DNA of 64,000 bases from contig QNYK01000079.1 in NCBI GenBank assembly GCA_003973385.1, positions 62,001 to 126,000 of the forward strand, read 5' to 3'. The stretch comes from Bacillota bacterium. Its GTDB lineage: Bacteria; Planctomycetota; UBA8108; UBA1146. The notes beneath the pieces were generated by a model. That model was not told the DNA's origin, searched no databases, and worked only from the letters and a program-made list of their open reading frames with translations. Shown here one piece after another: positions 8,901 through 25,626 of the stretch (its first letter is position 1; each line of letters begins with the position of its first letter). Made by a program: the position numbers and the translations under genes.

Positions 8901-9054
8901 TCAGATCAACGAATCATCGCAGCAGACCGCCGAGAAACACGCGGATCAGATGGAGAGTTACAGGCTGGCAGTCTCGAAAACCTGGGGGATTGAAGCCGAC
9001 AGGATCGATTGCCGTGTGTTGCTGGTCAAGAGCGGCGAACTGGTGACTCTCTAG
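5941..9054 (+). CDS. addA: AddA-like UvrD/Rep helicase-nuclease subunit
   Basis: 1037 aa. Walker A ASAGSGKT is at residues 11-18, motif Ia is AVTFTRRAAGE, motif II is LLLDEFQDTS, motif III is VGDPKQAIYGWRGG, motif V is VMTVHQAKGLG and motif VI is LYVAMTRARRS. The C-terminus has a RecB-like nuclease with GTLVHFAFEQ, GIIDRL and EVIDFKTD. This is the classical AddA architecture, with active helicase and second nuclease. The start overlaps the addB stop by 4 bp. The stop TAG shares a CTAG palindrome with the stop of the convergent gene, leaving no terminator space between them. Confidence 0.92.
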   Translation: MTFSPHLLIRASAGSGKTHQLTSRFIGLLTSGEDPAGILAVTFTRRAAGEIMERVLLRMLSATRDPEPLKQLQDSLVEAGFGRATSEQIEIALRGLVDQLHRCGVSTLDAFFARLAIAHTFECGLPPGWTILEKDQLEAVQAAAIQQILADGGQAKARILMHRLSRGKATSQVADQLEQIVSHGHDKYIEFPYSAWQNPQMSPRPDDARVQQVLDLFNSVTCPLTKAGTPKKNWQGALTRLGTWFDHPDGADALGLFKSGLALAVLNGESKFDRVEIPEDIYISVQLIIESARTHIASAIRAQNIATRELLASYDRYRSIGLHTRGGVAFQDIPQALAVASVLASADTILYRLDASTRHLLLDEFQDTSLLQFAALRPLIEEVASDSDGGRTVFCVGDPKQAIYGWRGGRAEVLDLLQDFLKPGSDQTLDASYRSSQEILDGVNTVFGSLPPAGWLATDHQAIRNWCNNFHDHVSAAGGPGDAPGHIVLKVAQQHPDREIAVCPYIDAIDEVERIIGISTECSIAILVRKNQNIARMVAALRERGIDASEEGGNPLVDSPAVGRLVALLELIEHPGDSTMRFAVAHSPLPQIARSIGGFPDGDWQDSQVARAISDTLRRRIHERGITEAIAPLAEGLAQICSSEDRVRIRQMMEQIHIRRFRGCRLEELITHLRTHHLSSPSGSRVEVMTVHQAKGLGRDVVILPELAPDWFKVLPNLLEQRATTDPSGERWISRYISKLERQILGEPYLEMNRQARKSQLQEALSVLYVAMTRARRSLIMILPAKKPPEASAAHLLLHTLGEGQPVTPGATLYERGDAGCPALICGEPETLSKEAKVPQLSTPSVGVVQTPSQHSATFSSEASFRARSVGTLVHFAFEQLEWAADLPPDIEELLSREYPRLSPFIEETVKLLAEAVQEPGLRATLDRTETEQRLGKCDGDQLVLEREVPFCCNTGDDLLNGIIDRLVILERDGRPIAAEVIDFKTDQINESSQQTAEKHADQMESYRLAVSKTWGIEADRIDCRVLLVKSGELVTL

Positions 9055-11108
9055 GGACAAGAAGGATGCATCTCACAGTTGAATCCAGCATCGATGGGTA
9101 TGATCCCGCATTCCGGGAAGGGAGAGGCGGGTTCAGACTGGCCCATGAAAAGATAGTAGAGCAGATACAGTCCATCGGAGATGTCCAGCAAACCATCAGC
9201 ATTTGCATCTGCGGCCTCCGGGCAATCGGGAATCGCAACCTCGCCGAATACCCTTGCGATCAGGAGCATCGCATCAGCGATTCCTATTCCTTCAACGCCA
9301 TCAGCCTCACCGCGAATGAAACCGGGTTCACAGGAGTCCAGCAGACCGTTTGAGTTGGTGTCATTGTTCGCTTCTGCAATATCACACTCGTCTGGAATAT
9401 GATTGTTGTTGCAATCCTCTGCCATTCCCTCGAGAAACTCGCACTCATCGGGTGTGCCGTCTCCATTGCAATCGGGGTCGCAACTGTCGATGGTGCCGTT
9501 GGAATCGCAATCGGATTCACTTCCCGCCTCAAGTTCGCAGGCATCGAGCAGGCCATCACCGTCGCAATCGAGGGATCCGTCCTGACCGATCTCACACGCG
9601 TCAGGGATCAGATTCTGATTGCAATCCGTCTGGCACACATCGGGGATCTCGTCACCATCGCAATCGGTCACGAGACCTGTATCGATGGCGCATGAATCGG
9701 GGATCCCATCGCCATCGCAATCGGCAACGACTCCCTCCAGCGTGGCACAGGAATCCGGGATGCCATCCCCATCGCAGTCGATCGATAGTCCCTGCGAGAT
9801 TCCGCAACTGTCTATGACACCGTCCAGATCGCAATCCTCGACCAGACCAGCGGCTATCGAGCAGGAATCCGGCTCCCCATCGAGATCGCAATCTTCATCT
9901 CCATGAACCACCAGGATGGCGTTTCCGCCGACAGGTGCCAGAGTAGAATCGAAGGGAGCACCTGAGATCACGACGCCACGATGCACGGCGATGGAACTAC
10001 CCAGGAAGGAACTGGGATTCCCGGTCAGCGAATCCTCCAGCTGCCAGCTACCCTGCCAGCGATAGATGGAGACGGAGCCGGCTGGAAACGCTTCGCTACC
10101 GGTATCCGTCGGAGCACCCACCGTCAACAGGCTCCCATCGAGATCGAGAACCGCTCCGAATGCGCAGCCGCTGGCACCGGACGGTGGCAGCAGGTGAGAT
10201 CCGAGAACCCAGACTTCTCCGACCCGGTGATAGTTGACCACTGCTCCCGCGTCAGGACCCGCGATGTCTGAATATGGCGACCCCAGCAACAGGTGCTGTC
10301 CCGAGATGGCGACCGAGGTTCCAAGCCGGTCACCCGGCGTCGCAGCCCCGGTGCCGACGTCAAACTCCTCGACCCAGCCATCCAGTCCTCCGGTGAACAG
10401 GAATGCTGCACCGGTGTCGGGCCCCAGAAAATCTCTACCTGGCGCTCCGATCAGCAATCGGGATCCATCCGCGAGCGAAACCGCCGTACCGAACTGATCC
10501 CCAGGAACACGATCGGTAGCGAGCAATCTCTGCTGCAACTCCCACCCCACCGCGGAGTCAAATCTCCAGAGGGTGACACAGCCGACCTGACCCTGGGCAG
10601 TCTCGAAATGCGGGCTTCCTGCAGCCAGCAGGTTGCCGTGCAGTGACAGTGCGGTGCCGAAACCGTCCCCGGGTTGACCCTGCGGGTCACTGAGGACCTG
10701 AACCTGGGTCCAGGCGAGGCGATCTCTTCGCCAGATCTCTACCGTCGCCGCGCCCGAGGCACCTGCCGCCAGCAAGTTGCCGTCTGCAGCGAGGCATGAG
10801 CCGAGCTGGCTACCCGCCTGTCCGATCAAGACTTCTTCGAGTTGATAGCCGCTCAGATTTCTCTGGAAAATTCTCACACTGCCGCTGAGAAACCCACCAT
10901 CATCATCACCTACGGCTCCGATGAAGGTTCGTCCACCCGAAATGGCCACGGATCGGCCAAGATCGTCCCCTGCACTGACGCCAAATATCTCGATCTCTCC
11001 GGTTGCACATTGGCCCTGAAGCGGGCCGCTACCAGCCAGTAGAATCAGCACCACCAGAGTCCCCTGGCAGAGGATCATCAGCGGTAATCGGCTGGAGCTG
11101 GATGGCAT
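9051..11108 (-). CDS. Secreted FG-GAP / calcium-repeat / dockerin protein
   Basis: About 685 aa from the ATG at 11108, which has AAGGA 7 nt upstream; an in-frame ATG at 11150 has no good site. A signal peptide (LPLMILCQGTLVVLILLAGS) is followed by roughly six FG-GAP-like blade repeats (pattern GDxFGTAVSL...LLIGAP), suggesting a beta-propeller. Then come eleven short Asp/Cys repeats of the form DCDGDGIPDSC, which resemble thrombospondin type-3/EF-hand calcium sites. The C-terminus is a dockerin-like pair (GIGIADAMLLIARVFGE and ANADGLLDISDGLYLLYYLF). Probably exported and calcium-stabilised; the ligand is unknown. Confidence 0.85.
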   Translation of the reverse strand: MPSSSSRLPLMILCQGTLVVLILLAGSGPLQGQCATGEIEIFGVSAGDDLGRSVAISGGRTFIGAVGDDDGGFLSGSVRIFQRNLSGYQLEEVLIGQAGSQLGSCLAADGNLLAAGASGAATVEIWRRDRLAWTQVQVLSDPQGQPGDGFGTALSLHGNLLAAGSPHFETAQGQVGCVTLWRFDSAVGWELQQRLLATDRVPGDQFGTAVSLADGSRLLIGAPGRDFLGPDTGAAFLFTGGLDGWVEEFDVGTGAATPGDRLGTSVAISGQHLLLGSPYSDIAGPDAGAVVNYHRVGEVWVLGSHLLPPSGASGCAFGAVLDLDGSLLTVGAPTDTGSEAFPAGSVSIYRWQGSWQLEDSLTGNPSSFLGSSIAVHRGVVISGAPFDSTLAPVGGNAILVVHGDEDCDLDGEPDSCSIAAGLVEDCDLDGVIDSCGISQGLSIDCDGDGIPDSCATLEGVVADCDGDGIPDSCAIDTGLVTDCDGDEIPDVCQTDCNQNLIPDACEIGQDGSLDCDGDGLLDACELEAGSESDCDSNGTIDSCDPDCNGDGTPDECEFLEGMAEDCNNNHIPDECDIAEANNDTNSNGLLDSCEPGFIRGEADGVEGIGIADAMLLIARVFGEVAIPDCPEAADANADGLLDISDGLYLLYYLFMGQSEPASPFPECGIIPIDAGFNCEMHPSCP
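9330..9898 (-). repeat. Eleven tandem DCDGDGxPDSC-type coding repeats
   Basis: Within the FG-GAP/dockerin gene. Most units are 19 codons (57 bp) and two are 13 codons. Each has a calcium-loop core of Asp/Asn at alternate positions and ends in Cys. The units differ at the DNA level, so this is not a recent expansion. Confidence 0.8.
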
Positions 11109-11258
11109 CGAACTGTCCTTCGAGACGAGGGAAGATTCCTCCCGTGACATCGGGAGTGAAAGTTCTACCTCTATCGTCTCGGCACAGCGAATACTGTCAA
11201 TCCACGCAGCACCTATAGGCTTGTGTGGGACAGGAAAGGGAGATGAAACGCTGAGGAT

Positions 11259-12653
11259 CTAGAGAGGATCTCCGAGTCGACGCGGCCAGTGGTCTTCGGG
11301 AGGCTCGGGTTCATCTTCACCGGCGGGCCGAATGTGATCCAGAAGGCCTTCTTCGACCTTGTCGTACTGGATCTTGCCGTTGATGACTGCCCACCGTACA
11401 TGAGACATGTACGAAAGAAGATCACCGTCCATGATGATGAAGTCGGCATCCTTTCCCACCTCGATCGACCCGATTCGATCCGCCACTCCGAGCAGGCGCG
11501 CGGGTTCGATGGTGATCGACTCCACCGCCACCTCCTCCGACAATCCACCTCTCACGGCAAATGCAGCTTCCAGAGGTAAGTGCGACAGATCCCGGCCTGC
11601 CAGACCCCACAGGGCAATTCCTCGACTGCCCGGCATGATGGTCACTGGAACTCCATGCTCATACAGGATCCTGGCATTCTCGATACTGGATCCCCCTGCA
11701 GCCCCACGGCTCTCATCCCGGTCTCGGCGACTACGAGGAGTCAACACCACTGACGCCCTGCAGCGTGCCAGCACTCCGGGTTCGATCCATGCCTCTTCAG
11801 CTCCCTCGATGATCATCTCGAATTCAAACCTTCTGGCCAGTTCACAGATTTCACGTAGATCGTAAATGGTCGAGGCCCGGGTCAGTGCAATACTCTTGCC
11901 GGTCAGCAGTTTGCGTGCTGTGGCGAAAACCCCTCGAATCCACTTATCGTCGGGAGCTTTCGCTTCCGGGTTTTCCTTCTTGTCACTCTCGTATCGTTCC
12001 AGTTCCCTGAGATGTTCCTGGACCTTCTCGAGCGCTTCGCGGAGTTCGCGCTTCCCGGTTGGGTTCCTGCTGACATAGCTGATCGAGGTGAAGGCCTTGT
12101 TTCGAAGCGTCAGGTCGCTGACTTCGCCTCGAATCAACTTACAGACACGGCTGCCGTTCCACGTCGAGGTGATCCCTGCAGCCAGCCCCATCACCGTGCC
12201 CAGCGCAAACGGATCCTGGGTCTTTTCCGGCTCTCCTGAGCCGACAAGGCCACTGGACCGAAACGCGACAAGGCCCGGATAGAGATGGTGTCCGCTGGCG
12301 TCGATCTTTTCAGCATCCGAGGGAGCCACGATGTCTTCCCCTATGGAGATGATCTTCCCATCCTTGCACAGCACGGTTCCTCCGCGAATCACTGGACCTG
12401 TGACGGTGTGGATGGTGGCACCCACGATGACGAGGTACTCGCCACCGGGATCCTCTGGCTCCGTCTCCTCTTTCTCCGGTTCAGGCGCTGGCGCAGGGGG
12501 CGGTGGTCGACGCCCGCGCCGGCGACGGCGTGGCGGGTCCTGTGCCTCCGAGATTCCCGCCATCTGGATCCGAGATCCGCAGTTGAGCGGAATGTCGGTC
12601 ACCATGAAGAAGACCGCCAGCATCACGAGAGAGGCTCTCATTTTGGGGTTCAT
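11259..12653 (-). CDS. Exported amidohydrolase-fold protein lacking the HxH metal motif (last gene of operon)
   Basis: 464 aa with an N-terminal export signal, then an Arg/Pro-rich spacer (PPRRRRRGRRPPPPAPAP) and an acidic stretch. The amidohydrolase composite fold is recognisable from VIVGATIHTV, GGTVLCKDGKIISIG, LYPGLV and the C-terminal EPARLLGVADRIGSIEVGKDADF. After LYPGLV, where active enzymes have DxHxH, it reads AFRSSGLVG, so the first two metal ligands are missing. A Lys/Glu-rich segment (residues ~205-240) sits in the barrel region. The start overlaps the upstream stop by 4 bp. Probably non-catalytic; the role is unknown. Confidence 0.85.
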   Translation of the reverse strand: MNPKMRASLVMLAVFFMVTDIPLNCGSRIQMAGISEAQDPPRRRRRGRRPPPPAPAPEPEKEETEPEDPGGEYLVIVGATIHTVTGPVIRGGTVLCKDGKIISIGEDIVAPSDAEKIDASGHHLYPGLVAFRSSGLVGSGEPEKTQDPFALGTVMGLAAGITSTWNGSRVCKLIRGEVSDLTLRNKAFTSISYVSRNPTGKRELREALEKVQEHLRELERYESDKKENPEAKAPDDKWIRGVFATARKLLTGKSIALTRASTIYDLREICELARRFEFEMIIEGAEEAWIEPGVLARCRASVVLTPRSRRDRDESRGAAGGSSIENARILYEHGVPVTIMPGSRGIALWGLAGRDLSHLPLEAAFAVRGGLSEEVAVESITIEPARLLGVADRIGSIEVGKDADFIIMDGDLLSYMSHVRWAVINGKIQYDKVEEGLLDHIRPAGEDEPEPPEDHWPRRLGDPL

Positions 12654-13984
12654 CGGTTGTCCTCTCGATCCCAGACCACTTCTCCTGCGATGATGGTCTT
12701 CATCACCTTTGCCCCCGGCTCCAATGGGTCGGCATCGAAGAGTACGAAGTGCGGCTCCTTACCTGCCTCGACGGTACCCATACGATCTCCGAGTCCCAGC
12801 AACCGGGCAGGCTCAGCCGTGACCGAAGCGATGGCGGCCTCGCGGGTGAGGCCATATCGAACCAGTTCTGCCAGCATGCCCGGGATGTTCCTCATCCCCT
12901 CAGGGTTGTCAGTACGCGGTATCGTCACCAGAGTGCAGCCGGCACGAGACAGCGCCACAGGAATCGAAATCCTCGTATAGGTGTCGGGAAAAGCACTGAG
13001 ACCAGGCGGAATCAACACCGTGGCCTTTCGCTCTGCGAGCAGTTCAATCACCTGATGAAAGGCGCCATTTCGACTGCTGGGCAGGATGAAGATCCCCATC
13101 GGGTCGCGGTCCTTCAACTCTTTTACCTTCGCCATGGCGGCATCGAAGTGAAGGATCAATCCAGGCGTACCCGCATCAAATACGATCGGAAGGGCATCCT
13201 CTTCTTCCTGAAGAATCTTGACCAGTTCGACGAGCGCAGGATCCATCTCGGGTGGAGTGAACTCCTTGGGCTTGTCATCTTTGGCCTCTCCTCCCTTCTT
13301 TTTCTCCTCGGCCGCTTCTGCATCCTTTTTTCCGGACTCTTCCTCGGCTTTCTTCTTCGCCTCTTCCTGCTCCTTGTCCCACTTCTCTCTTGCTTTCTCG
13401 ACCTTTTCTATCTCACCTCGCGCGTTACCGAACGCCTTGTCGATCGAAGCGTAGAGTCCAGACGATGTTCTGCCATTGAGCGGCAGGAAGGCGGATTCAT
13501 TGAGGATGCGGTCAGCACTCTCGGGAGCTGTGTTGACCACCACTGCATGTCCAGGAAATCCGGAACCACTAGGTACCAGCGAAGCGGCAACAAAGCCGGC
13601 TTCCAGAAATTCAGACCAGGGCATCTCGATCTCATTCAACTGCCGCAGCGGCGACCAGTCACAATGGATCCCATTTCGTGAAAGAGCGCTGAGACCATGG
13701 CTGGAGCGCGCGAGTATCATTCCGGCCATCAGGGTCTGACCCCTGGCATCGATGATCCTGGCATTCTCGGGATACTCCAGCTGATTGCCAACCAACGAGA
13801 TCTTGCCGTCCTCGTAAACAACCTCGCCTGGCTCAAGAATTTCTCCGGTACCGGTGATGATACGCGAGGCTCGAATCACCGTGACACGATCCGCGTCGTC
13901 TGCCGCCTGTAACGGAAGGGCTGGCAGCAGCAACACCAGCAGGCAGATGGCCCACCTCGGGAGGGGTTGAGTTCGGCCATCCAT
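12650..13984 (-). CDS. Exported amidohydrolase-fold protein lacking the HxH metal motif, with charged insertion
   Basis: 444 aa from the ATG at 13984, which shares one base with the preceding stop (TGATG). The signal peptide is WAICLLVLLLPALPLQA. The fold is shown by VIRASRIITGTGEILEPGEVVYEDGKISLVG split over strands 1-3, and by EPARLLGLGDRMGTVEAGKEPHFVLFDADPL at the C-terminus (quoted here only as landmarks). The position after TLMAGM reads ILARSSHG instead of DxHxH, so the metal site is absent. Residues ~165-215 are a very charged Lys/Glu coiled segment rich in EEAKKKAEEE-type heptads. The two genes next to it belong to the same family. Confidence 0.85.
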   Translation of the reverse strand: MDGRTQPLPRWAICLLVLLLPALPLQAADDADRVTVIRASRIITGTGEILEPGEVVYEDGKISLVGNQLEYPENARIIDARGQTLMAGMILARSSHGLSALSRNGIHCDWSPLRQLNEIEMPWSEFLEAGFVAASLVPSGSGFPGHAVVVNTAPESADRILNESAFLPLNGRTSSGLYASIDKAFGNARGEIEKVEKAREKWDKEQEEAKKKAEEESGKKDAEAAEEKKKGGEAKDDKPKEFTPPEMDPALVELVKILQEEEDALPIVFDAGTPGLILHFDAAMAKVKELKDRDPMGIFILPSSRNGAFHQVIELLAERKATVLIPPGLSAFPDTYTRISIPVALSRAGCTLVTIPRTDNPEGMRNIPGMLAELVRYGLTREAAIASVTAEPARLLGLGDRMGTVEAGKEPHFVLFDADPLEPGAKVMKTIIAGEVVWDREDNR

Positions 13985-15222
13985 CAGAAGACCCGCTTTC
14001 CGCTGGCATCGTAGGTCACCTTGCCATCGATGATGGTCAGTTCGCACGATGAACGAGGATCGATCGGGTCGCCTGTCCAGAGGCCGAAATCCGCATCCAG
14101 GCCGACAGTGATGCTGCCGAGTCGATGATCCATCATCAGTGCTTCTGCAGGAATCCGCGTCACTCCCTTGAGTGCCTCGTAGGGAGTCCAGCCGTAGTAG
14201 CACGCCATCGCCGCCTGGTAGAACAACTCCTCCTGGGGGATCACCGGAGAGTCGGTATTGATCCCCAGTCGTCGCACGCCTGCTTGCCACCAGCGGGCAG
14301 CATTCCCCATGATCCGCCGTTGCGTCCGGTCATAGTGGATCTGACGGGGCCCGTTGATGGTGTAGATGCTCTCATCTTCATTGACCAGCCTGGCCACCTT
14401 CCAGGCGTCAAAGGTGGAGTGGTCGAGAACGGTACGAATTCCGAACTCTCCTGCGACCATCTTCACGGTGGTCATCAACACCTGGAAAATTTGCGTGTGC
14501 ACCGATGCGACGATCTCTCTGCGAAAGAGCGGCCGAAACTCCTCCCAGTGAAGATCCTTCGGAGGTTCAGTTTCCAGTTTTCCCTCTTCCCACGCCGTAC
14601 GAGCGAGGTGGTAGTCTCTCGCCTTGCGCAGGGTCTGGCGTGTATTGAAGTTCATGAATGAACGCCCAACGCCGTAAAAGTACCGCTCGGGGTTCCCTGC
14701 CTGAGCAATTTTCAACGAGCCTGGAGCCTTCAATACGGCTTCCTCTACCGTGCCTGTCCCGGCTGTCTTCAAGATGGTGCCGAAGCCAGACATGTTATTG
14801 CCGCTGCCCGGAATCGTCAGCACGGTGGTGACCCCTCCGGCCCTGGCGCGCTCCATTTGCTTTCCATCAGGGACCACCGACTCCAGGGTTCGCAGGCCAG
14901 GATTGGTCAGGTAGATATAATCGTGAAGGTCAGGGCTGGAGCCACCCGTGTGGTTGTGGCACTCGACCATTCCCGGAACCAGCCACAGTTGTGGCCGGTC
15001 GATGACCTCTGCTCCATCGGGAATCTCGATATCTCTGGATCGACCAAGCGCGGTGATCTTTCCATCGACAACCACCACGACGGCGTTGTTGATGACCCGA
15101 TCATCGTCATCCATGGTGATGATCTTGCCGACCTGGAAGGCCGTGACATCCACAGCAACTACATTGTCGGCGAAACTGACCAGGGTCAGCAAACCGACGA
15201 GAAACAACTTCATGTCCCTCAT
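13984..15222 (-). CDS. Amidohydrolase with intact metal-binding residues (the only one in the operon)
   Basis: 412 aa with signal peptide LFLVGLLTLVSFADNVVA. It keeps HNH (H89, H91) in GMVECHNHTGG, further His candidates H242 and H268, and Asp at D324 in INTDSPV, matching the metal-ligand/catalytic set of imidazolonepropionase-like amidohydrolases. The C-terminal beta-sandwich signature (HRLGSITVGLDADFGLWTGDP) is present. No charged insertion as long as those of its paralogues is seen. GGAGG lies 7 nt before the ATG, and the start overlaps the preceding stop in ATGA. A C-N bond hydrolase is likely; the substrate is unknown. It may be the sole catalytic member of this set. Confidence 0.9.
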   Translation of the reverse strand: MRDMKLFLVGLLTLVSFADNVVAVDVTAFQVGKIITMDDDDRVINNAVVVVVDGKITALGRSRDIEIPDGAEVIDRPQLWLVPGMVECHNHTGGSSPDLHDYIYLTNPGLRTLESVVPDGKQMERARAGGVTTVLTIPGSGNNMSGFGTILKTAGTGTVEEAVLKAPGSLKIAQAGNPERYFYGVGRSFMNFNTRQTLRKARDYHLARTAWEEGKLETEPPKDLHWEEFRPLFRREIVASVHTQIFQVLMTTVKMVAGEFGIRTVLDHSTFDAWKVARLVNEDESIYTINGPRQIHYDRTQRRIMGNAARWWQAGVRRLGINTDSPVIPQEELFYQAAMACYYGWTPYEALKGVTRIPAEALMMDHRLGSITVGLDADFGLWTGDPIDPRSSCELTIIDGKVTYDASGKRVF

Positions 15223-17948
15223 CTCGGGACCTCCTCTCCATCGATGAACACCCTTTGCAGACGGCTACCCGCCTCGAGGGGATGTCCATGCCAGATCAAC
15301 AGGTCTGCGTCGAGGCCCTTCTCGATCGATCCGACTCGATCCTGAGCTCCCAGCGCTTCAGCCGCTCCACGTGTCAGTGCATATAAAGCAGCGTCAGCAC
15401 CCATGCCCCTCTCCACCGCCTCCATCGCCTGCTGGGGCAGGGCACGCGCTCCATCGGAAGCCTGACTCTGGAACGCAACATTGATACCTGCGCGAGTGAG
15501 AAAGGAAGCGGGGGCGAATTCTTCCCGATTGACGGTAAAAGTCACCTGCCGCGGCAGAATCACCGATACCGAGTTTTTGGACAGAAGATCACTGTAGTGT
15601 CTCATCTCGGGACCGAGCCTGAGCGTCAAGGAAATCTCCTTCTTCGAGAAGAACTGGATGACCTTTGCTGCGACTTCCAGACCACTGGGAGTCACCACCA
15701 CTGGAATCTTCTTCTCGAGTACATCACGGATCGGCTCCATCGCCAGATTGACCTTCGGCGGATTGGGACGACCGTCATCGTCTCGCTTCTTGCGCCGCTC
15801 CACCTTGAAAGTCTTGGCTTCCTTGCTGGTGCGGGTACCCACCACATCCGCAGAGAATTGCATCACCGAGATGGTCCCCGACAGGGAGTCTTCTCCGGTC
15901 AGTTCTGCTTCGATCTTGGGTGTATCTGGAATCACTCCATCTTCGATCTCGATGGTGCCTTCGATGGTTGTCCCGGAGAGTGTTCCCACCACCCTCACCG
16001 GAATCGGAGGAACAGGGTCCACGATGCGACCCTCGAACTTGTCTCCGTCGAGTTGAATCGAGATCGAAACCGTCTCGGTATCCGGAAGCGGGCCGCCAGA
16101 GATGCTCAATTCCCATATCCCCGTGAGTGGGTCCGGCCCCTCTTCTTCCACCACTTCTTCCTCTACCTCGTCCTTCGTTTCGATCGTTTCCCCCGCGTCC
16201 TTCTTTACTTGCCACTCTGCGAGTTCCTTCTCGTACTTCTTCCAGGAATCGAGGTACTTCTGGCCCTGCCCCAGTAATCGTGTGATGGAGCCGAGAGCAT
16301 CATCCGGATGGCCGCTGGCTTCCAGAAGCAATGCAGATACAGGCTGTGCAACACGAGTGGCTCTGGTCCGGCCAGCGGTCTTGACCAGCACTGCTGTTGC
16401 AGCACCTCGCTGCAATCGCCTGGGAGTCAGCAACTGGGAAGTCACTCCCGCTCGCGCTACCCGGTGTTCCGGCTCATCCGCGGATCCGATCAGTCTGAAC
16501 AGGCGATCCCCGGTACCTGCAGCTCCCGTGTCACCTCGCAATCCGAGATGACCAAAGGTGTCTATGAATCCAGCGACGACAAAACTGCCCGGTCCCGCAT
16601 CGACCACCTTCGAATGGGGTGGGTGCGGAACCCTTCGTCCCACCGATGCGATCTTGCCATCCTCGACGAGGATCTCCCCATCATCGATCACCTCCTCGGG
16701 CGAGAGCCAGATCGTCTCGGCGCGAATCACCGTTGCGGATTCGTTTCGTGGCTGCCAGACACTCCGGCCATCGGCAACCACCTCGAGTGGGTGGGCAGTG
16801 ATGTTCCACGGCGCTTCGTTCCAGACCACGATGTCTGCGTCTTTACCCGCTTCCAAACTACCCACACGATCATCGACTCCCAGGATGCGAGCGGCATTGT
16901 GTGTCACCAGTGCAATCGAATCCTCGGGGTTCTTCATATGTGAGGCTGCTTCTACCAGCGCCCATCGCAGATTGGCCAGATCGTTACCGGGAGGAGCGAG
17001 AGCCATCAGTCCATCGCTTCCCAGATCGGGCCAGTGGGTCAGGCCCTCGATCGGCTCCCTCACTGAGAACCCTACATCTCCACCCACCAGCTGTATGCGC
17101 AGGACCAGCGGGATTCCCGCCGCAGCAAGCGCAGGAGTGACCTCGGCGATCTCTGTTCCCCCCACGATGTAACCTTCACGCCCCTTGCCGCGGATGAAGG
17201 AGATCGCAGCGAGGATCTCCGGCGCTCTACGAGCGGCCACCCTCAGGGGCAAACCCGATTGCCAGGCTTGTGCCAGTTCGCCATGGGCCGCTGCATCCTC
17301 GGTTGATTTCTCGATCGCCTCACTGAGAGCCAGCAGACGGCCGATGCGACTTCGAGGCCGCTGCTCTACAGGTGCGGTGATCGCCACATCACTGGAGGCG
17401 GGAAATGGAATCTCGAGCAGCGCACGAGGGCCATCCACATCGTCGGTGAGCGAAAGGCAGAGATCTGAACTGGATCGGATGATCCGGTCCTCGGCGTCCC
17501 CGACCAGCTTGACGACAGCTCCCTGGCCACTGACGAGGCGATGCTCTCCCGGGCTCAGGTGGACGGTGGTGACCCCTGTCCTCAACAGCGGGCGGTGGTC
17601 TCCGTAACGATCGAACCCATCCGAGGCCCGGAAAGCAGCGGAGATGCTCTCAGGCGATGAGTGCGGGGATACCAATCCACTTGCTGCAGCAACGAGACCG
17701 GGAGTGACATAGGCATCGGGCCAGTGGACCAGCGGAAGTTGATCCAGACTGGCATCTTGCTCCAGTTCAGACCATGCAGCGGCTGCGACCACCTTGCCAT
17801 CACGGACCACGATCGCTGCATCGGGAATCTCTCGAATCCCCGTGTGGACGGTGCCTGCACGGAGCACGAAGTCATCCCCTGCGCCCTGCGCAGCCACCGA
17901 CTGGACCCACAGTGACAGGATCCCGATCAGGATCAGCGGAAATCGCAT
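15219..17948 (-). CDS. Double amidohydrolase-fold protein with inserted beta domain; both metal sites lost
   Basis: 909 aa from the ATG at 17948 (GGAGG 8 nt upstream, one base after the preceding stop). There is a signal peptide at 1-20. Residues ~25-400 form one amidohydrolase-like domain (YVTPGLVAAASG in place of the HxH loop; ARILGVDDRVGSLEAGKDAD at its end). Residues ~405-909 form a second (FVVAGFIDTFGHLGL; GAQDRVGSIEKGLDADLLIW). Inside the second, after an acidic linker at ~585-605, residues ~606-710 form a beta-rich module (DPLTGIWELSISGG ... GTISVMQFSADVVGTRT), lipocalin-like in look, rarely seen in this family. Neither half has the metal-binding HxH. Exported, probably non-enzymatic. 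Confidence 0.85.
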   Translation of the reverse strand: MRFPLILIGILSLWVQSVAAQGAGDDFVLRAGTVHTGIREIPDAAIVVRDGKVVAAAAWSELEQDASLDQLPLVHWPDAYVTPGLVAAASGLVSPHSSPESISAAFRASDGFDRYGDHRPLLRTGVTTVHLSPGEHRLVSGQGAVVKLVGDAEDRIIRSSSDLCLSLTDDVDGPRALLEIPFPASSDVAITAPVEQRPRSRIGRLLALSEAIEKSTEDAAAHGELAQAWQSGLPLRVAARRAPEILAAISFIRGKGREGYIVGGTEIAEVTPALAAAGIPLVLRIQLVGGDVGFSVREPIEGLTHWPDLGSDGLMALAPPGNDLANLRWALVEAASHMKNPEDSIALVTHNAARILGVDDRVGSLEAGKDADIVVWNEAPWNITAHPLEVVADGRSVWQPRNESATVIRAETIWLSPEEVIDDGEILVEDGKIASVGRRVPHPPHSKVVDAGPGSFVVAGFIDTFGHLGLRGDTGAAGTGDRLFRLIGSADEPEHRVARAGVTSQLLTPRRLQRGAATAVLVKTAGRTRATRVAQPVSALLLEASGHPDDALGSITRLLGQGQKYLDSWKKYEKELAEWQVKKDAGETIETKDEVEEEVVEEEGPDPLTGIWELSISGGPLPDTETVSISIQLDGDKFEGRIVDPVPPIPVRVVGTLSGTTIEGTIEIEDGVIPDTPKIEAELTGEDSLSGTISVMQFSADVVGTRTSKEAKTFKVERRKKRDDDGRPNPPKVNLAMEPIRDVLEKKIPVVVTPSGLEVAAKVIQFFSKKEISLTLRLGPEMRHYSDLLSKNSVSVILPRQVTFTVNREEFAPASFLTRAGINVAFQSQASDGARALPQQAMEAVERGMGADAALYALTRGAAEALGAQDRVGSIEKGLDADLLIWHGHPLEAGSRLQRVFIDGEEVPR

Positions 17949-17949
17949 T

Positions 17950-19557
17950 CTAGAGCCCTCCGACCGTCGGCTTGTCGTCGGGATTGTCATCCGGCTTGTC
18001 GTCAGGCTTGTCCTCCGGTGGCACCGGCTTCTTGTCGGGGGCCTCTTTCTTGACCTTCTCGGTCGACTTTTCCTTCAAGGGTTGAGGATCTGCCTTCTCG
18101 TCACCCTCCGGCTTGTCTCCATCCTCGTCGGCGGAACTGCCATCCCCGTCCTCTGCAGAGGAATCCGAATCATCGAGGGGAGCAGGAGGTTCTGGCTCCT
18201 CGGGAACTTCTGGAAAGAGCCTCTCCAGCCTCGCATCTTTTTCACGATCATAGGCGAGAATGCCCTCGACCCAGACCTTCTGGACCCAGGAGGTCAGATC
18301 GAGGGGGTCACCGGTCCACATCACAAGATTGGCGACCTTTCCGACCTCGATCGATCCATAGCGATCCCCAACTCCACAGATCTCTGCAGCGCCGAGGGTC
18401 ACGATGCGCAAAGCAGCTTCTGGAGAGACTCCGGAGCGGACCAGACGAGCAGCCTGGTAGCCCAGGAATCTCTCAGGCATCGAACCGGTCCTGGAAGGCT
18501 GGATTGCAAATTTCACCCCTGCATCGCGATAGATATCCGGAATGAACGTCTCGATCAGATCGCCGCTGATGGGATCCCTTTTTCTGTACATCAGGTCAGC
18601 ATCGAGGATCACCGATAGGTTGGAGTCATCGATCTCGGTCACCGCAAGGTGGGCATCTCCGCCGAGGACCAGTACAGAGTTCTTCTGCCACCCTCTATCG
18701 GAGATGAGCCCCAGCGCAGGAGCCACATCCGAGGCCGATCCACAATAGATCCACGCACCCAGTCGACCATCGACAAGATGGGCAAGATTGCGATGCAGAT
18801 CATCCAGATCTTCATCACGGATCAGTTCCTCACCCTTCTGGCGCGCCTCTTCAGGTGGCAGCGGCTCCAGATCGTCGTCTTTATCCGCTTCTTGCTCGAA
18901 TCTCTTCTCTGCAAGGTCCTCTCTCCAGCGGTCGTATTCCGAGAATACCTCGCGCAACTCTGCCAGTTGTCGCAATCGATCGTATCCCCGCTTTGGAGAT
19001 GTCGAGAGTTTCATCGCCACACCAGCCTGGCGCGACATCTCGTGTGGAGAGAGTCCAATCGGATGCACGATGCGACTGACACCACCAACAACGCAGTTGT
19101 TCCCCTGAATGACATGGATCGTCGTGACACCATTTCGAAGCGAATCCTCGAAGAAGAATCTGGAAGGATCGATGGCATCGAAGACGTCGACAAATGGCGC
19201 TTTCGCAAGGTTCTCATTGGGAATGTCGAGTCCGTCAGCACTGTGCGGATCGACAAATCCAGGCGCAAGGATCATGCCGCTGCAGTCGACTTCCATCGCA
19301 TCGTAGGGAATCTCCGTGTCCCCTTCACCGACTGCAGTGATGATGCCGTCTTCAACGAGGATCACTCCCTCATCGATGACAGATCCGGAGACGGTCAGCA
19401 CCGTCCCTCCTGTGAAGGCAACCTTGTTCCCATTCGCCTGCGCCATCGGTGTTGCCATCAGGAACAACACCGTGACGATGACCCATGTCAGTGGGCGTAT
19501 AATATTGAAGTTCATCGAAAACATCGGCTCCTTGCCTCCCGGGACTCTCGGATTCAT
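17950..19557 (-). CDS. Exported amidohydrolase-fold protein, metal motif degenerate, acidic C-terminal tail
   Basis: 535 aa. The start at 19557 overlaps the previous stop (ATGA) with GGAG 7 nt upstream; ATGs at 19524 and 19515, nearer the signal peptide, are alternatives. The HxH loop reads GFVDPHSADGL, so only one of the two His remains. C-terminal signature GVGDRYGSIEVGKVANLVMW is present. A charged stretch lies at ~205-245. The last ~90 residues are a low-complexity Asp/Glu/Lys/Pro tail (SSAEDGDGSS, KPDDKPDDNPDDKP). An exported non-catalytic role is inferred, and the tail could bind cations or partners. Confidence 0.85.
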   Translation of the reverse strand: MNPRVPGGKEPMFSMNFNIIRPLTWVIVTVLFLMATPMAQANGNKVAFTGGTVLTVSGSVIDEGVILVEDGIITAVGEGDTEIPYDAMEVDCSGMILAPGFVDPHSADGLDIPNENLAKAPFVDVFDAIDPSRFFFEDSLRNGVTTIHVIQGNNCVVGGVSRIVHPIGLSPHEMSRQAGVAMKLSTSPKRGYDRLRQLAELREVFSEYDRWREDLAEKRFEQEADKDDDLEPLPPEEARQKGEELIRDEDLDDLHRNLAHLVDGRLGAWIYCGSASDVAPALGLISDRGWQKNSVLVLGGDAHLAVTEIDDSNLSVILDADLMYRKRDPISGDLIETFIPDIYRDAGVKFAIQPSRTGSMPERFLGYQAARLVRSGVSPEAALRIVTLGAAEICGVGDRYGSIEVGKVANLVMWTGDPLDLTSWVQKVWVEGILAYDREKDARLERLFPEVPEEPEPPAPLDDSDSSAEDGDGSSADEDGDKPEGDEKADPQPLKEKSTEKVKKEAPDKKPVPPEDKPDDKPDDNPDDKPTVGGL

Positions 19558-21122
19558 TTATTGGCTCCGCCTCGAATGAACGAGATCACACCTTCGTGGT
19601 ACACCTTTTCTATCTGCGACAGAGAGGAGAAGGGTGTGCCACTCCAGATGACCAGATCAGCTCTTTTTCCGGCCTCGATGGTTCCGACCTGGGCATCGAT
19701 CCCCAGCAGCCGGGCTGGATTTTGCGTCACCAGTCTCAAGGCCATCGCAGGATCGACTCCATGTCGAATCGCCAGCATCACCTGGCGGGCGAGCCCCTCC
19801 TCACCTCTGAGGTCCTGAGCGCTCAGCGACACGGAAACTCCGGATGAAACCAGGTCACGTAGGGTGTGCAGACGTGCCCCGCGGCTCTCGTTGGTGCCCG
19901 CCAGAATTCCACTGGGAACATCAAATACCGGGCCGAACACGACATCGACGCCACTCTCCGAGAGCAGGTCGACTCGCTTCCACGCTTCGACAGGATCTTC
20001 GAGAACAAAATCCAGGCCGAACTCGCCGCAAAGTCTGAAAGCAGTTTCTATATCAGGCGCTGTGCGAGCCTGGATCCTGAGTGGAACTTCACCGGCGAGA
20101 ACCTGCGAGAGCACTCTCGAGGCACTGGGACTGGATGTATCCGCGCCGCTGGGTTGGACACCACTTGCCCGCAGGATTGCATCATGGAAAGCCTTGCGAA
20201 ACACCCATGTCACTCCCATCCGGGAATCAGGGCGTCTGGTGTAAACGGAGACCATCGAACGAAATGGGCCGCGGTTTCGCGAACCGTATCGATAGGCGTC
20301 GCTTCCGACGACACCCTTCACCGCACCGGCTCCCAGATATCTGGCGCCAACGGGTCCACCTGTCTTCATCAGGGAACCCCGGCCTCCAATCACCGCCGAG
20401 GAGTCGGGACTGACATAGATGGTCGTCACTCCCTCTTCGAGTAATCGGTCGAAATCATCCGATCCCTGATCGATCGCATCGAACACATCGAAGTGAGGCA
20501 CAACCTCACTCGATTGTTCATTGACGACTCCACTGGGTAGGGGGACTCCAGCCGCTCGATCACCAGCAAGTGCATCCGCAGCGATTTCATCGGTTGGATC
20601 ATGAGGGTGAGGGTCGTGATCGGGCCAACCGCAGTAGAGGCACATCTCGTCGGCGATATGGGATGTCATGGCGGGGCAAACCGTGCCGCAAGGGCAGACA
20701 TCGCCGCCGTGGTAATGTTCTTCCAGACCCATCACCCGGAGAATCTGCAGCCTGGGATCCTCTCCGGGGAAATAGATCGCATCGGCGACATCGATCCTGG
20801 CGTTGGCGTCGATCAGTCCAGGTGTGATGTCAGAGACGACCAGTAGATTCCCACCCCCCACGACCTCACCACCGCTGACAACACTCTGGATGATGCCGTC
20901 CTTGATGACGATCAGTGCATTCTCGACGATCTGTCCATCACCGATATGCGCACGGTCTGCACGGATGGTCACATCTCTGACCAGTTCAACAGCCGATTCT
21001 TCGGCATCGCCAGCCACAACCACGGTGCTCGATGCAGGAGCCAGCGCCAGAGTCAATAGCAACACAATCGATGTCGCTGAGATGAATCCAGATGGCTGTC
21101 TCGTCGGGGTTTGCTTCTTCAT
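19554..21122 (-). CDS. Exported amidohydrolase-fold protein with Cys/His-rich insertion, no HxH
   Basis: 522 aa from the ATG at 21122, overlapping the preceding stop in ATGA, with AAGGA upstream. Signal peptide SIVLLLTLALAPASS. The loop after the first barrel strand reads DITPGLIDANARID, lacking both His ligands. Residues 136-174 form a Cys/His-rich insertion: HYHGGDVCPCGTVCP, then CLYCGWPDHDPHPHDP, with five Cys and five or more His. It looks like a small metal knuckle and is not a normal amidohydrolase element. The C-terminus (ARLLGIDAQVGTIEAGKRAD) is conserved. Exported, with a possible metal-binding role. Confidence 0.85.
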   Translation of the reverse strand: MKKQTPTRQPSGFISATSIVLLLTLALAPASSTVVVAGDAEESAVELVRDVTIRADRAHIGDGQIVENALIVIKDGIIQSVVSGGEVVGGGNLLVVSDITPGLIDANARIDVADAIYFPGEDPRLQILRVMGLEEHYHGGDVCPCGTVCPAMTSHIADEMCLYCGWPDHDPHPHDPTDEIAADALAGDRAAGVPLPSGVVNEQSSEVVPHFDVFDAIDQGSDDFDRLLEEGVTTIYVSPDSSAVIGGRGSLMKTGGPVGARYLGAGAVKGVVGSDAYRYGSRNRGPFRSMVSVYTRRPDSRMGVTWVFRKAFHDAILRASGVQPSGADTSSPSASRVLSQVLAGEVPLRIQARTAPDIETAFRLCGEFGLDFVLEDPVEAWKRVDLLSESGVDVVFGPVFDVPSGILAGTNESRGARLHTLRDLVSSGVSVSLSAQDLRGEEGLARQVMLAIRHGVDPAMALRLVTQNPARLLGIDAQVGTIEAGKRADLVIWSGTPFSSLSQIEKVYHEGVISFIRGGANK

Positions 21123-22273
21123 CGGGTTCCTTCCAGTTGCCGGATGTGGTCCGGGGCTTGTGAGCGCATGCGCGCTCCTCCGATCCACACCTGAAGTACT
21201 CTCGCCCCCGGATCGAGTGGGTCCGAGGAGAACAGCACCAGATCTGCGCGAGCGCCCGGTTCGATGACTCCGACCCCGCGACACCCGGCGACCCGGGCAG
21301 GGTTGGAGAAGAGTGCTCGTCTGGCGGCATCTCCGTCGAGTCCAGCGGCCACGGCGATGGCTGCACTCCCTCGCAGTTGATCTGCAGGACCTCGCCCCAA
21401 TAAACCCTTGAAGGCGAGTTCCGTACCGGTGCGAGCTGCCCGGATCGCGGTGGACACCACTGCCGGATCTCCACCTTCGAGGAACGGACCCACCACCATC
21501 ATCGCGTCTCGACCTGCGAGCCTCCCGACGGGAGACCTCGCGTCTCCAGAGTGAACCAGCACGGGTAATGACTTCCAGCCGAGCGACAGAGTTTGACGGA
21601 GGTCGATGGCATCGGGACAGTAGAGGATTCCCGGGGTCCGGGGCGTGGAGTCGTCGCTGTTCAGCCAGCCCTTCCAGATCGACACCATCGCCGAACGGCT
21701 GGTCGGCTCACGAGACGAATTGAGAACCGTTCCTGACAGTGCGAAGAACGGTTTTCCAGTCGCCACCGATGTGGCTTCGATGGAACTCTGGCAGATGAAG
21801 GTGGCGGTGGTTCCGTTGAGGACACCGGAGGGAATCGCAGCGATGGTGGTATAGAGCACACCGTGTATCGCTGCTCGATCGAGATCGGGATCTGTCGGGT
21901 CGAATGCGTCCGCAGCAGCCAGTTCTTCATCGATGAGAACAGTACCCGCTTTGAGGGAACCGCTGGCCCCCAGTGATCCGAGCAGATCGTGCAAGCCGGG
22001 TGTGAGTACCGCGCCAGACGGAGCAGCGAAGGTGGAGAGCTGCGGATCTGCCTGATCTGCGGGAATGACGGCGGCGATGGTGCCGTCAGGCTCGATGACA
22101 ACTGCCATCTGCTGGCAGATACTTCCATCGGGGCCAATCACTCCGACCGGAGCGATCACGACGGTGCCGTCCTTTGTGATCGACGCCGCAAGCAGCAACG
22201 GTATCAGCGATAACAATCCGACCATGGCAAGCCTACTGATCAACAGTGTGATTCTCTGAAGGCGAGTTCTCAT
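21119..22273 (-). CDS. Exported amidohydrolase-fold protein lacking HxH (short member)
   Basis: 384 aa from the ATG at 22273, which shares a base with the preceding stop (TGATG) and has GGAAGG 9 nt upstream. Signal peptide LLISRLAMVGLLSLIPLLLAAS. The usual HxH position reads LTPGLHDLLGSLG. The C-terminal ARVAGCRGVGVIEPGARADL still matches the family. This is the smallest and most divergent paralogue and has no charged insertion. Its place within an unbroken series of overlapping starts and stops shows it is co-translated with its neighbours. Confidence 0.82.
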   Translation of the reverse strand: MRTRLQRITLLISRLAMVGLLSLIPLLLAASITKDGTVVIAPVGVIGPDGSICQQMAVVIEPDGTIAAVIPADQADPQLSTFAAPSGAVLTPGLHDLLGSLGASGSLKAGTVLIDEELAAADAFDPTDPDLDRAAIHGVLYTTIAAIPSGVLNGTTATFICQSSIEATSVATGKPFFALSGTVLNSSREPTSRSAMVSIWKGWLNSDDSTPRTPGILYCPDAIDLRQTLSLGWKSLPVLVHSGDARSPVGRLAGRDAMMVVGPFLEGGDPAVVSTAIRAARTGTELAFKGLLGRGPADQLRGSAAIAVAAGLDGDAARRALFSNPARVAGCRGVGVIEPGARADLVLFSSDPLDPGARVLQVWIGGARMRSQAPDHIRQLEGTR

Positions 22274-23742
22274 CAAAAACTACCTTCCCGGGTCCCGGCG
22301 GGACGCTGCCAGACGACGGTGCCATCGATGATCACACGTTGCGGTCTTGCGAGCGGGTCTTGCGCAGGATTTTTATCCCAGAGCACCAGTTCCGAGCCGC
22401 CCTTGCGAAGCCACCCAGCCCCCCGGCCGCGCGAACCCTGGGCGAGAGCGAGTCGAAGTGGAGAGGCCCCATCGGCTTGCCCGGCGATCATCTGGATCGA
22501 TCTCCAGAGAGATGTACTCTCGCCGCCACTGGCCACTGACCATTCGATCCCAGAAGCTTCGAGTCTCGATATCAGTGCAGAATCTCGACGAGGAACAGAA
22601 CCTCGCTGGAGCGGAACACGCGGCACATCGAGCAGGATCGACAGCTGGTCCATCTCTTGCAGCGCCTCCAGCATCAGGTGAGCCTCGTCCGCGCCCTGGA
22701 TGGTGGCGACAAAACCGAACTCCTCGATCAGGTCGAGGGCATTCTGTAAATCCTGGCTCCTTCGGGCTGTGATCATCACCGGCAACTCGTGGTCGAGAGC
22801 CTGAAGCAGGATATCGGAGGCGGGATTGCGCTGCGGTCGACCGGGTTTCTCGGGACCCTTCTCCTCTTCCTTTTCCTTATCGTCCTTATCGTCCTTATCG
22901 TCCTTATCGTCCTTATCGTCATTATCGTCATTATCGTCCTGATCGTCGGCTTTCTTGTCGTCACCCTTCTCTTCCTTGCCCTCGGAATCTGCCTTCTTCT
23001 TGGCGGCTTCGGCGAGTTCCTCGATGTACTTCTCCAGATCACTGGAGTAATCATCGGCAGCATCGCGGCGACGCTCCGCAGCACGGAATGCTTCTCTCAC
23101 CTTTTCAAAGGTGCGGATCTTTTGCAGTGGAGTTCCGGTATCGAGATCGATACAGAGTGCGACATCCTCGGCATCGAGAATTCCATGGCCGCCGCCTTCC
23201 CTTGCACCGAGAGAAACCGAACAAGCTCGTCCGACAATTCCCCCTGCGCCCACCGGCACCAGATGAATCCTCGTCACGCCAATTGAGAGCACTTGCATGA
23301 TCCGTTCCGAGTCGTATCGGTCGAATCCATCCCAGGCACTATGAACTGCGCTCGCCGAGTTCACCGCGTCCAGGGTCAAGGTAGAGTAAAGATCGGTCAT
23401 CCCTGCCGTGGCAAAGAGCCCCTCGACTTTCAATTTCCGGGACATCAATGGAGCATCCGCGTCGGGTCCCATCTCGGTGATCCGGCCACCCCTCAAGATG
23501 ATGTTGGCATTTTTCATCACCGTGCCATCCGGAGCGGGCAGATGGACACCCTCGAGCACGAGTGCGCGCTCGAATATCTGCGCCTGCAGCGTGTCCGGAC
23601 CCCAGCCACCGATCAGCAACACGAGTGCTGAAATGGCTGCCAGGGTCAGAGATCTCATACTGGCAGAGAGCCCGGCGAGGCGACCCGTTGCAACCTTGAC
23701 GCGCAGCACCTCATGTGGGCAATAACGGCAACTCGGCTTCAT
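22273..23742 (-). CDS. Exported amidohydrolase-fold protein lacking HxH, with Asp-Asp-Lys repeat linker (first gene of operon)
   Basis: 489 aa from the ATG at 23742 (AAGGA about 12 nt upstream); an in-frame ATG at 23658 directly before the signal peptide (LTLAAISALVLLIGGWG) is an alternative. The HxH loop reads LFATAGMTDLYSTL, so the metal site is absent. Residues ~245-300 are a charged linker containing a perfect run of DDK units. The C-terminal part has SELVLWDKNPAQDPL in place of the usual signature. It heads the seven-gene operon. If the long start is used, CRYC precedes the signal peptide. Confidence 0.83.
   Translation of the reverse strand: MKPSCRYCPHEVLRVKVATGRLAGLSASMRSLTLAAISALVLLIGGWGPDTLQAQIFERALVLEGVHLPAPDGTVMKNANIILRGGRITEMGPDADAPLMSRKLKVEGLFATAGMTDLYSTLTLDAVNSASAVHSAWDGFDRYDSERIMQVLSIGVTRIHLVPVGAGGIVGRACSVSLGAREGGGHGILDAEDVALCIDLDTGTPLQKIRTFEKVREAFRAAERRRDAADDYSSDLEKYIEELAEAAKKKADSEGKEEKGDDKKADDQDDNDDNDDKDDKDDKDDKDDKEKEEEKGPEKPGRPQRNPASDILLQALDHELPVMITARRSQDLQNALDLIEEFGFVATIQGADEAHLMLEALQEMDQLSILLDVPRVPLQRGSVPRRDSALISRLEASGIEWSVASGGESTSLWRSIQMIAGQADGASPLRLALAQGSRGRGAGWLRKGGSELVLWDKNPAQDPLARPQRVIIDGTVVWQRPAGTREGSF
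22881..22943 (-). repeat. 9-bp coding minisatellite (DDK units)
   Basis: Seven consecutive 9-bp units on the plus strand: four of CGTCCTTAT, two of CGTCATTAT and one of CGTCCTGAT. On the coding strand they give Asp-Asp-Lys and Asp-Asp-Asn triplets. The near-identity of the first four suggests recent slippage, so copy number may vary between strains without breaking the frame. Confidence 0.85.
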
Positions 23743-24124: not shown

Positions 24125-25051
24125 ATGGAAGCCTTGAACGATCAGTTCTCCACTCCGTTGAGAGCCGTCGGTTCCGATGATGAGTTTCGCACCAAGGTCG
24201 GCCTCGCCGAGATGCTGCGAGGCGGCGTCATCATGGATGTCACCACTGCCGACCAGGCGAAGACAGCACAAGAGGCGGGAGCCGTCGCCGTCATGGCACT
24301 CGAGCGTGTTCCCTCTGACATCCGTAGAGACGGAGGCGTCGCTCGGATGTCACCCGTGGACAAGGTTCGGGAGATCCAGGCAACCGTCTCGATCCCCGTG
24401 ATGGCCAAGGCGAGAATCGGCCACTTCGTCGAGGGCGAGATCTTGCAGGCGCTGGAAGTCGATTTCATCGATGAATCTGAAGTTCTGACTCCTGCAGACC
24501 ATGCCCACCACATCGACAAGAGCCGCTTCAAGGTTCCATTTGTCTGCGGAGCCACGAATCTCGGTGAAGCGCTTCGCCGCATCGCAGAAGGAGCTGCCAT
24601 GCTTCGCACCAAGGGCGAGGCCGGCACCGGCGATGTGACCGAAGCTGTCAGGCATCTGAGATTGATTCGCAGCCAGATTCGCGCCGTCACCCAGGCCAGT
24701 CCCGATGAACTGATGAGCATCGCAAAGGAACTGGCTGCCCCCTACTCGCTGGTGTGCCAGATCGCCAAGGATGGCAGACTTCCTGTCCCCAACTTCGCCG
24801 CAGGAGGCATCGCCACACCCGCAGACGCAGCCCTCGTGATGCGACTCGGTGCCGAGGCAGTCTTTGTCGGTTCGGGAATATTTAAATCCGAGGAACCGCT
24901 CCGAACCGCCACGGCCATCGTCCATGCGACTGCGCACTTTGATGATGCTGTGCAGCTTGCCGAGGCTTCCAGCGGACTCCCGAAAGCGATGCAGGGGTTG
25001 GATTCCAGCAAACTTCCCGAGGATGAACGACTCCAGGTCCGAGGCTGGTAA
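24125..25051 (+). CDS. pdxS: Pyridoxal 5'-phosphate synthase, lyase subunit
   Basis: 308 aa, close to the usual ~295. PdxS condenses ribose 5-phosphate and glyceraldehyde 3-phosphate with ammonia from PdxT to make PLP. Landmarks are GGVIMDV (D38), [11 protein letters not shown] (K95, the Schiff-base Lys of the first site) and [11 protein letters not shown] (K163, second site), plus the phosphate-binding [19 protein letters not shown] abuts the ATG at 24125; a TTG at 24134 has better spacing and may be the real start. pdxT follows 2 bp after the stop. Confidence 0.96.
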
Positions 25052-25053
25052 CC

Positions 25054-25626
25054 TTGCCATCGGTCCGCCCAGCAGTTCTGGCTTTACAGGGTTCTGTCGA
25101 GCCGCATCTTCGTGCGTTGTCGGAAGCGGGTGCAGAGCCGATCGAACTGCGGCGTCCCGACCAGCTCGATGACATCACTCACCTCGTAATTCCGGGGGGC
25201 GAGAGCACGACGTTGAGCCACCTTCTCGATCTCCACTCCCTGGCGAGGACGATCACCGACCGGGTCATGGCTGGAGACCTCGCTCTACTCGGCACCTGTG
25301 CAGGAGCGATCCTGATGGGTCGAGACGATGACGAGGCGCCACGGCGCTGGAACCTGATCGACATCGGGGTGCATCGAAATGGATACGGCCGCCAGGTCCA
25401 TTCCTTCATCGGTGACATCGAGTGGATCTCGGGTCCTCGATCAGGTGCGAGCGAGGGAGTCTTCATCCGGGCACCGCGCCTCGATCGACCCGCCGCCGAA
25501 GTGGAGATCCTGGCCACCCGAGCACAGGAGCCCGTCGCCGTGAGGCAAGGACGCTGCGTCGCCTGCACATTCCACCCGGAATTGACGACAGATACGCAGG
25601 TCCACCGCTGGTTCCTGGAACTCTGA
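25054..25626 (+). CDS. pdxT: Pyridoxal 5'-phosphate synthase, glutaminase subunit
   Basis: 190 aa from a TTG start 2 bp after pdxS. Class-I glutaminase: nucleophile C82 in LGTCAGAILMG, and H174/E176 in FHPEL complete the triad. VIPGGESTT forms the oxyanion-loop region. It supplies ammonia to PdxS. GAGG in the pdxS tail serves as ribosome-binding site. Confidence 0.95.
   Translation: MPSVRPAVLALQGSVEPHLRALSEAGAEPIELRRPDQLDDITHLVIPGGESTTLSHLLDLHSLARTITDRVMAGDLALLGTCAGAILMGRDDDEAPRRWNLIDIGVHRNGYGRQVHSFIGDIEWISGPRSGASEGVFIRAPRLDRPAAEVEILATRAQEPVAVRQGRCVACTFHPELTTDTQVHRWFLEL

Follow-up and report, generated by a model that had tools for sequence, protein, structure and literature searches.

The window analysed here, a 64,000-nt stretch of the planctomycete contig QNYK01000079.1, carries on its minus strand an operon (11259-23742) of eight genes that encode nine amidohydrolase domains, termed A, B, C, D, E1-E2, F, G, and H, with junctions of −4, −1 or +1 bp between neighbouring genes. 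The preliminary description of this DNA had correctly recognized adjacent minus-strand amidohydrolase genes joined by short overlaps or a 1-bp gap, but counted seven genes and eight domains, at odds with the nine motifs in its own list; likewise, the genes without the metal-binding HxH number seven (eight domains) rather than six. Gene A (22273-23742) encodes an exported amidohydrolase-like predicted pseudoenzyme with DLYST as its strand-1 motif. The further exported products with degenerate motifs are those of B (21119-22273 if started at ATG, or to 22276 from TTG; LHDLLGS), C (19554-21122; DANAR), D (17950-19557; DPHSA), E (15219-17948), which combines two putative pseudoenzyme domains, E1 (AAASG) and E2 (DTFGH), G (12650-13984; ARSSH), and H (11259-12653; AFRSS). 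All the degenerate motifs quoted earlier are present, HxH is missing from each of the eight non-F domains in the window, and the intact version, HNH, occurs only in F (13984-15222), an exported amidohydrolase with a complete metal site and the sole predicted active member. The proposed export of every product also finds support in the 12-residue mean hydropathy by which we judged the N-termini: all eight are hydrophobic and of the export type, with best values of 2.4-3.0 as compared with 0.2-1.3 in three cytosolic controls. Downstream by 109 bp and on the same strand lies a gene (9051-11150) for an FG-GAP repeat protein with a TSP3-like and dockerin-like C-terminus, and divergent pdxS-like and pdxT-like genes (24125-25626, plus strand) lie upstream of the operon.

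To place the nine domains, we aligned the eight non-F groups with the F profile using hhalign, which returned a probability of 100 and E ≤ 4e-46 over 353-395 columns in all cases. The earlier statement that most members keep the GSIEVGKDAD-type C-terminal signature stands only in part: Pfam matches to most domains covered chiefly their C-terminal part, but the signature is absent from A, which had no Pfam amidohydrolase match whatsoever, and the amidohydrolase score of B fell under the cut-off. The AlphaFold2 model of A is nonetheless a full barrel (pLDDT 82.5, pTM 0.77), whose top Foldseek match in the PDB is 3ooq (TMt 0.72-0.74), and that of E contains two full barrels (pLDDT 88.9, pTM 0.78) with the same top match; its pTM indicates a fairly confident overall arrangement for the two dead barrels of this protein. 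The superfamily fold (PF01979/PF07969), a TIM-barrel with a flanking beta-sandwich, was thus found in F by sequence, in A and E by AlphaFold2 and Foldseek, and in the rest by profile alignment with F. By fold, A-E, G, and H are relatives within this superfamily and, as judged from their motifs, they are not catalytic members.

The barrels differ in their insertions. Between barrel strands 4 and 5, AlphaFold2 predicted a 53-residue helix in A (residues 205-257) and a 37-residue helix in E2. A also contains an acidic low-complexity stretch of the DDKDDKDD type (22789-23286, minus strand), and in the barrels of D, G, and H the equivalent position is taken by charged helical insertions. A beta-rich insert of E2 (15804-16136, minus strand; approximately residues 605-715 of E, as delimited by AlphaFold2 secondary structure) yielded no match in a PDB sequence search, and it may be absent from some class-level relatives, since E2 is ~100 residues shorter in them.

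For F, the top solved sequence relative is again 3ooq (E = 7e-77), an amidohydrolase of Thermotoga maritima that is a single gene product with which no pseudoenzyme set is known. F further shares its fold with COG1228-type prolidases, carboxypeptidases, and imidazolonepropionase (Cc2672 3mtw, 3feq/3n2c, and HutI), all of which, to our knowledge, function without pseudoenzyme paralogues. None of the function-specific NCBIfam models reached its cut-off with F, the top one being XaaProDiPepCaul at 72.6 bits against a cut-off of 500. F is best explained as a metal-dependent hydrolase belonging to the imidazolonepropionase/prolidase-like (COG1228-type) enzymes, and its substrate would by default, as a guess from the family, be an amide, a dipeptide or an N-acyl amino acid encountered outside the cytoplasm.

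We then scored the metal ligands across orthologues at positions taken from profile alignments, a few of which were left unaligned. H89, H91, K171, H242, H268, and D324 of F, which match the ligands (HxH, Lys, His, His, Asp) of metal-dependent COG1228-type members, occur without exception in 97 of 97 orthologues and are likewise retained by the tandem extra copies of F, from which we infer that F is active as a hydrolase. The other lineages have lost this set to different degrees. No testable F ligand survives in more than 3% of 86 orthologues of H, which has invariant residues of its own (W289, R307, D355, and R368), and next to no F ligands are left in A, E1, and G. D retains the first His in 82% and the Lys in 94% of its orthologues but never the second His, which persists in 77% of those of E2, and 55% of C orthologues have Lys at the K171 position. 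B is mixed, with HxH still there in some lineages (e.g., L067 and L074), which makes the count of active members lineage-dependent. The proposal of pseudoenzymes made together with one intact member is borne out by this pattern, albeit partly for B, and the alignments support classing the eight non-F domains as pseudoenzymes.

Loss of the canonical ligands could still conceal activity through a metal-free or relocated active site, in which case the operon would encode a multi-enzyme pathway. The residual His and Lys of D, the second His of E2, and the conserved acidic and basic residues of C, D, E1, and H, which are specific to each lineage, are compatible with this possibility, and pseudoenzymes with migrated catalytic residues do exist (PMC10211241). 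However, when we looked for the alternative complete metal site that the preliminary description had named as evidence against its own reading, the orthologue alignments of the eight pseudo lineages revealed no cluster of conserved His or Cys. A, B, and G moreover have no more than three polar positions conserved at 88%. These two observations make a replacement metal site unlikely, and we regard hidden catalysis as improbable.

We next compared the operon among relatives collected from whole genomes, mostly metagenome assemblies, and from named contigs, nearly all of them planctomycete-labelled. Absence of the operon from relatives, which the preliminary description had named as refuting its reading, was not what we saw: the order A B C D E1-E2 F G H with all nine domains occurs in 66 of 98 distinct loci, and 19 further loci from more distant families have the same order. 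Nearly all the remaining loci of the 98 are truncated by contig ends, the exceptions being split operons. In L133 and L139, A-E and F-G-H lie at separate sites of one genome, and L142 fits this pattern, although of its A-E half a short contig (L205) shows just C-E; both halves are retained in each of the pairs L203/L133, L204/L139, and L205/L142. Incomplete loci were also considered as true losses, which was rejected for those checked because the missing half was found elsewhere in the genome. L106 adjoins a run of N and has A-D elsewhere on the same record. Some loci of distant families carry up to five copies of F; L187, L178, L188, and L062 have 3 to 5 tandem copies of F and a single copy of each dead member. 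Coverage beyond Planctomycetota came from one scan of contigs, in which nearly all of the best 80 of 300 matches are planctomycete-labelled records. Two records, L106 and L111, are titled Gemmatimonadota and Vicinamibacteraceae and hold a planctomycete-type operon with ~60% F identity; these titles may be misassignments.

Flanking genes are common only within the window's family, with pdxS/pdxT upstream and the FG-GAP protein downstream, and are different in other families. The FG-GAP gene adjoins the operon only in this family, and the pdxS-like and pdxT-like pair, kept in the family, is replaced by other genes elsewhere. Since the operon remains whole while its surroundings change, its conservation is that of a unit in its own right and does not derive from the neighbourhood, and regional synteny alone was rejected as the cause of conservation. 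No conserved neighbouring transporter or enzyme hinting at a substrate was found among the operon flanks compared. Both the size of the gene set and, by a wide margin, the breadth of its conservation exceed what could be told from the window.

Co-occurrence was assessed by searching 392 genomes of the phylum separately with F, H, and D profiles, the orthologue scores of H and D being well separated from those of paralogues. D, F, and H were all present in 103 of the 113 genomes that had any of the three, a count that leaves out two weak F matches, and the discordant genomes, lacking one or two of them, are mostly fragmented assemblies. When 151 domains were placed in a tree, single clades were obtained for C, D, E1, G, and H, whereas 2-3 changes are required for each of E2, A, and B, and F is broken up by its tandem copies. 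These position-specific clades suggest that the nine domain lineages probably predate the sampled planctomycete families. Branch-length distances are correlated across the nine domains (r 0.70-0.92), as expected under vertical inheritance as one unit.

Purifying selection on the pseudoenzymes, which had been put forward as a test, was evident. In the best-calibrated genus, where dS is unsaturated, dN/dS is ~0.02-0.10 for the eight dead domains and lower still for F; other pairs are noisier, reaching 0.43 where dS < 0.1, and all are well below 1. The dead members hence combine loss of the catalytic motif with purifying selection, the two features that define a pseudoenzyme set. A trivial origin of the array, by neutrally decaying tandem duplications or as an assembly or annotation artefact, could be read into the adjacency of the paralogues and the graded loss of ligands, some of which B and D retain, but this would not account for the purifying selection, the clades by position, the phylum-wide order, or the co-occurrence in many independent assemblies. 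We rejected neutral decay on the dN/dS values and the position clades, and consider this whole explanation hardly credible.

Additional indications of a common function came from gene architecture. In several lineages, genes are fused along the gene order (A-B, A-B-C, C-D, D-E, and G-H), E1-E2 being fused everywhere; the fusions seen join neighbours only and none includes F. Exactly 4 or 1 bp of overlap was scored at 223 of 422 junctions, a count in which the start nearest the upstream stop was used and which favours short distances. Ordered fusions and gene overlaps are classical, albeit indirect, signs of a shared complex. Partner-specific co-evolution of adjacent members was also sought across the nine domains and gave no signal, with rate correlations of 0.13 for adjacent versus 0.14 for non-adjacent pairs (permutation p 0.55).

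On balance, we lean towards the operon product being an exported hetero-oligomer of paralogous barrels in which eight pseudoenzyme domains support one active hydrolase. The operon would thereby specify a single exported system of several proteins, comprising nine paralogous amidohydrolase (TIM-barrel) domains, with F, the one metal-dependent hydrolase, at the centre of the assembly. The other eight domains have lost the metal site but kept the barrel, and would serve as subunits dedicated to structure, regulation or substrate positioning, which position, stabilise or regulate F. Physical assembly is suggested by the fixed order, the ordered fusions, the coupling, and the co-occurrence, and a periplasmic location and a role for each pseudoenzyme are likewise proposed. 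Several observations point against a hetero-oligomer, namely the lack of a partner-specific rate signal, the restriction of fusions to neighbours and the absence of fusions with F, the HxH still present in some B orthologues, and the duplication of F up to five times in some lineages; the fast evolution of A, B, and G, in which 7-11 positions are conserved at 95%, would suit scaffolds and loose partners equally.

Alternatively, the dead members could be separate exported proteins that bind substrates, products, or cell-wall or polymer fragments in the pathway of F, outside any single complex. Barrels that stay intact after loss of the ligands would still offer binding pockets, lineage-specific conserved polar residues do occur in C, D, E1, and H, and the co-evolution test gave no sign of specific partners. 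Yet a conserved binding pocket is unlikely in A, B, and G, which are almost without conserved polar residues, and a phylum-wide fixed order with ordered fusions exceeds the usual need of independent binders; we therefore deem this arrangement rather unlikely. A bolder version of the hetero-oligomer, which we put forward tentatively as a possibility, is a planctomycete-specific exported and self-assembled ring, shell or filament, in which nine different barrels would take fixed places and the eight dead ones would make up the body and gate, feed or regulate the single live hydrolase. Its logic would resemble that of heteromeric assemblies such as the proteasome or septins, although the building block would be a metabolic-enzyme fold.

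The nearest precedent in the same superfamily is the class A2 aspartate transcarbamoylase (ATCase) of Pseudomonas, in which an inactive dihydroorotase chain (pDHO) without zinc ligands is kept as the partner of an active enzyme and is required for assembly and activity (PMC7053772). That system, however, involves one pseudoenzyme and an unrelated catalytic chain in the cytosol, whereas the operon described here, known from sequence, has eight pseudoenzyme domains and one active paralogue, all with export signals. Closer at hand, a related ARRANGEMENTS is found in the same genome as the window, where a two-gene locus (L079, C48:4000-16000) encodes one member with all six ligands and one with none, and a two-domain protein (L080, C57:1-8000) has a dead N-domain and a C-domain with HxH. 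An arrangement comparable to these active/inactive pairs lies on a Hymenobacter plasmid (L198:5137-8400), where a run of three short amidohydrolase ORFs resembles an active gene that is broken plus one inactive member. All three cases involve two members, unlike the nine of the operon, and fall on separate branches of the tree. On their basis, active/inactive pairing may be a wider habit of the group, with the nine-domain operon as its extreme form. Neither the nine-domain set nor the C48, C57, and Hymenobacter pairs had a published account in the literature searched.

Pseudoenzymes usually occur singly. Eight dead domains and one live paralogue, kept in order phylum-wide, provide a natural test bed both for the retention of dead enzymes and for the evolution of paralogous hetero-complexes, and natural variants are at hand for comparison, namely the fusions, the split operons, the loci with up to five copies of F, and the lineages in which B has HxH. 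Collectively, the conserved nine-part set suggests an undescribed machine in which eight dead domains would serve a live one, a conserved exported function of planctomycetes that the annotation 'amidohydrolase family protein' has hidden.
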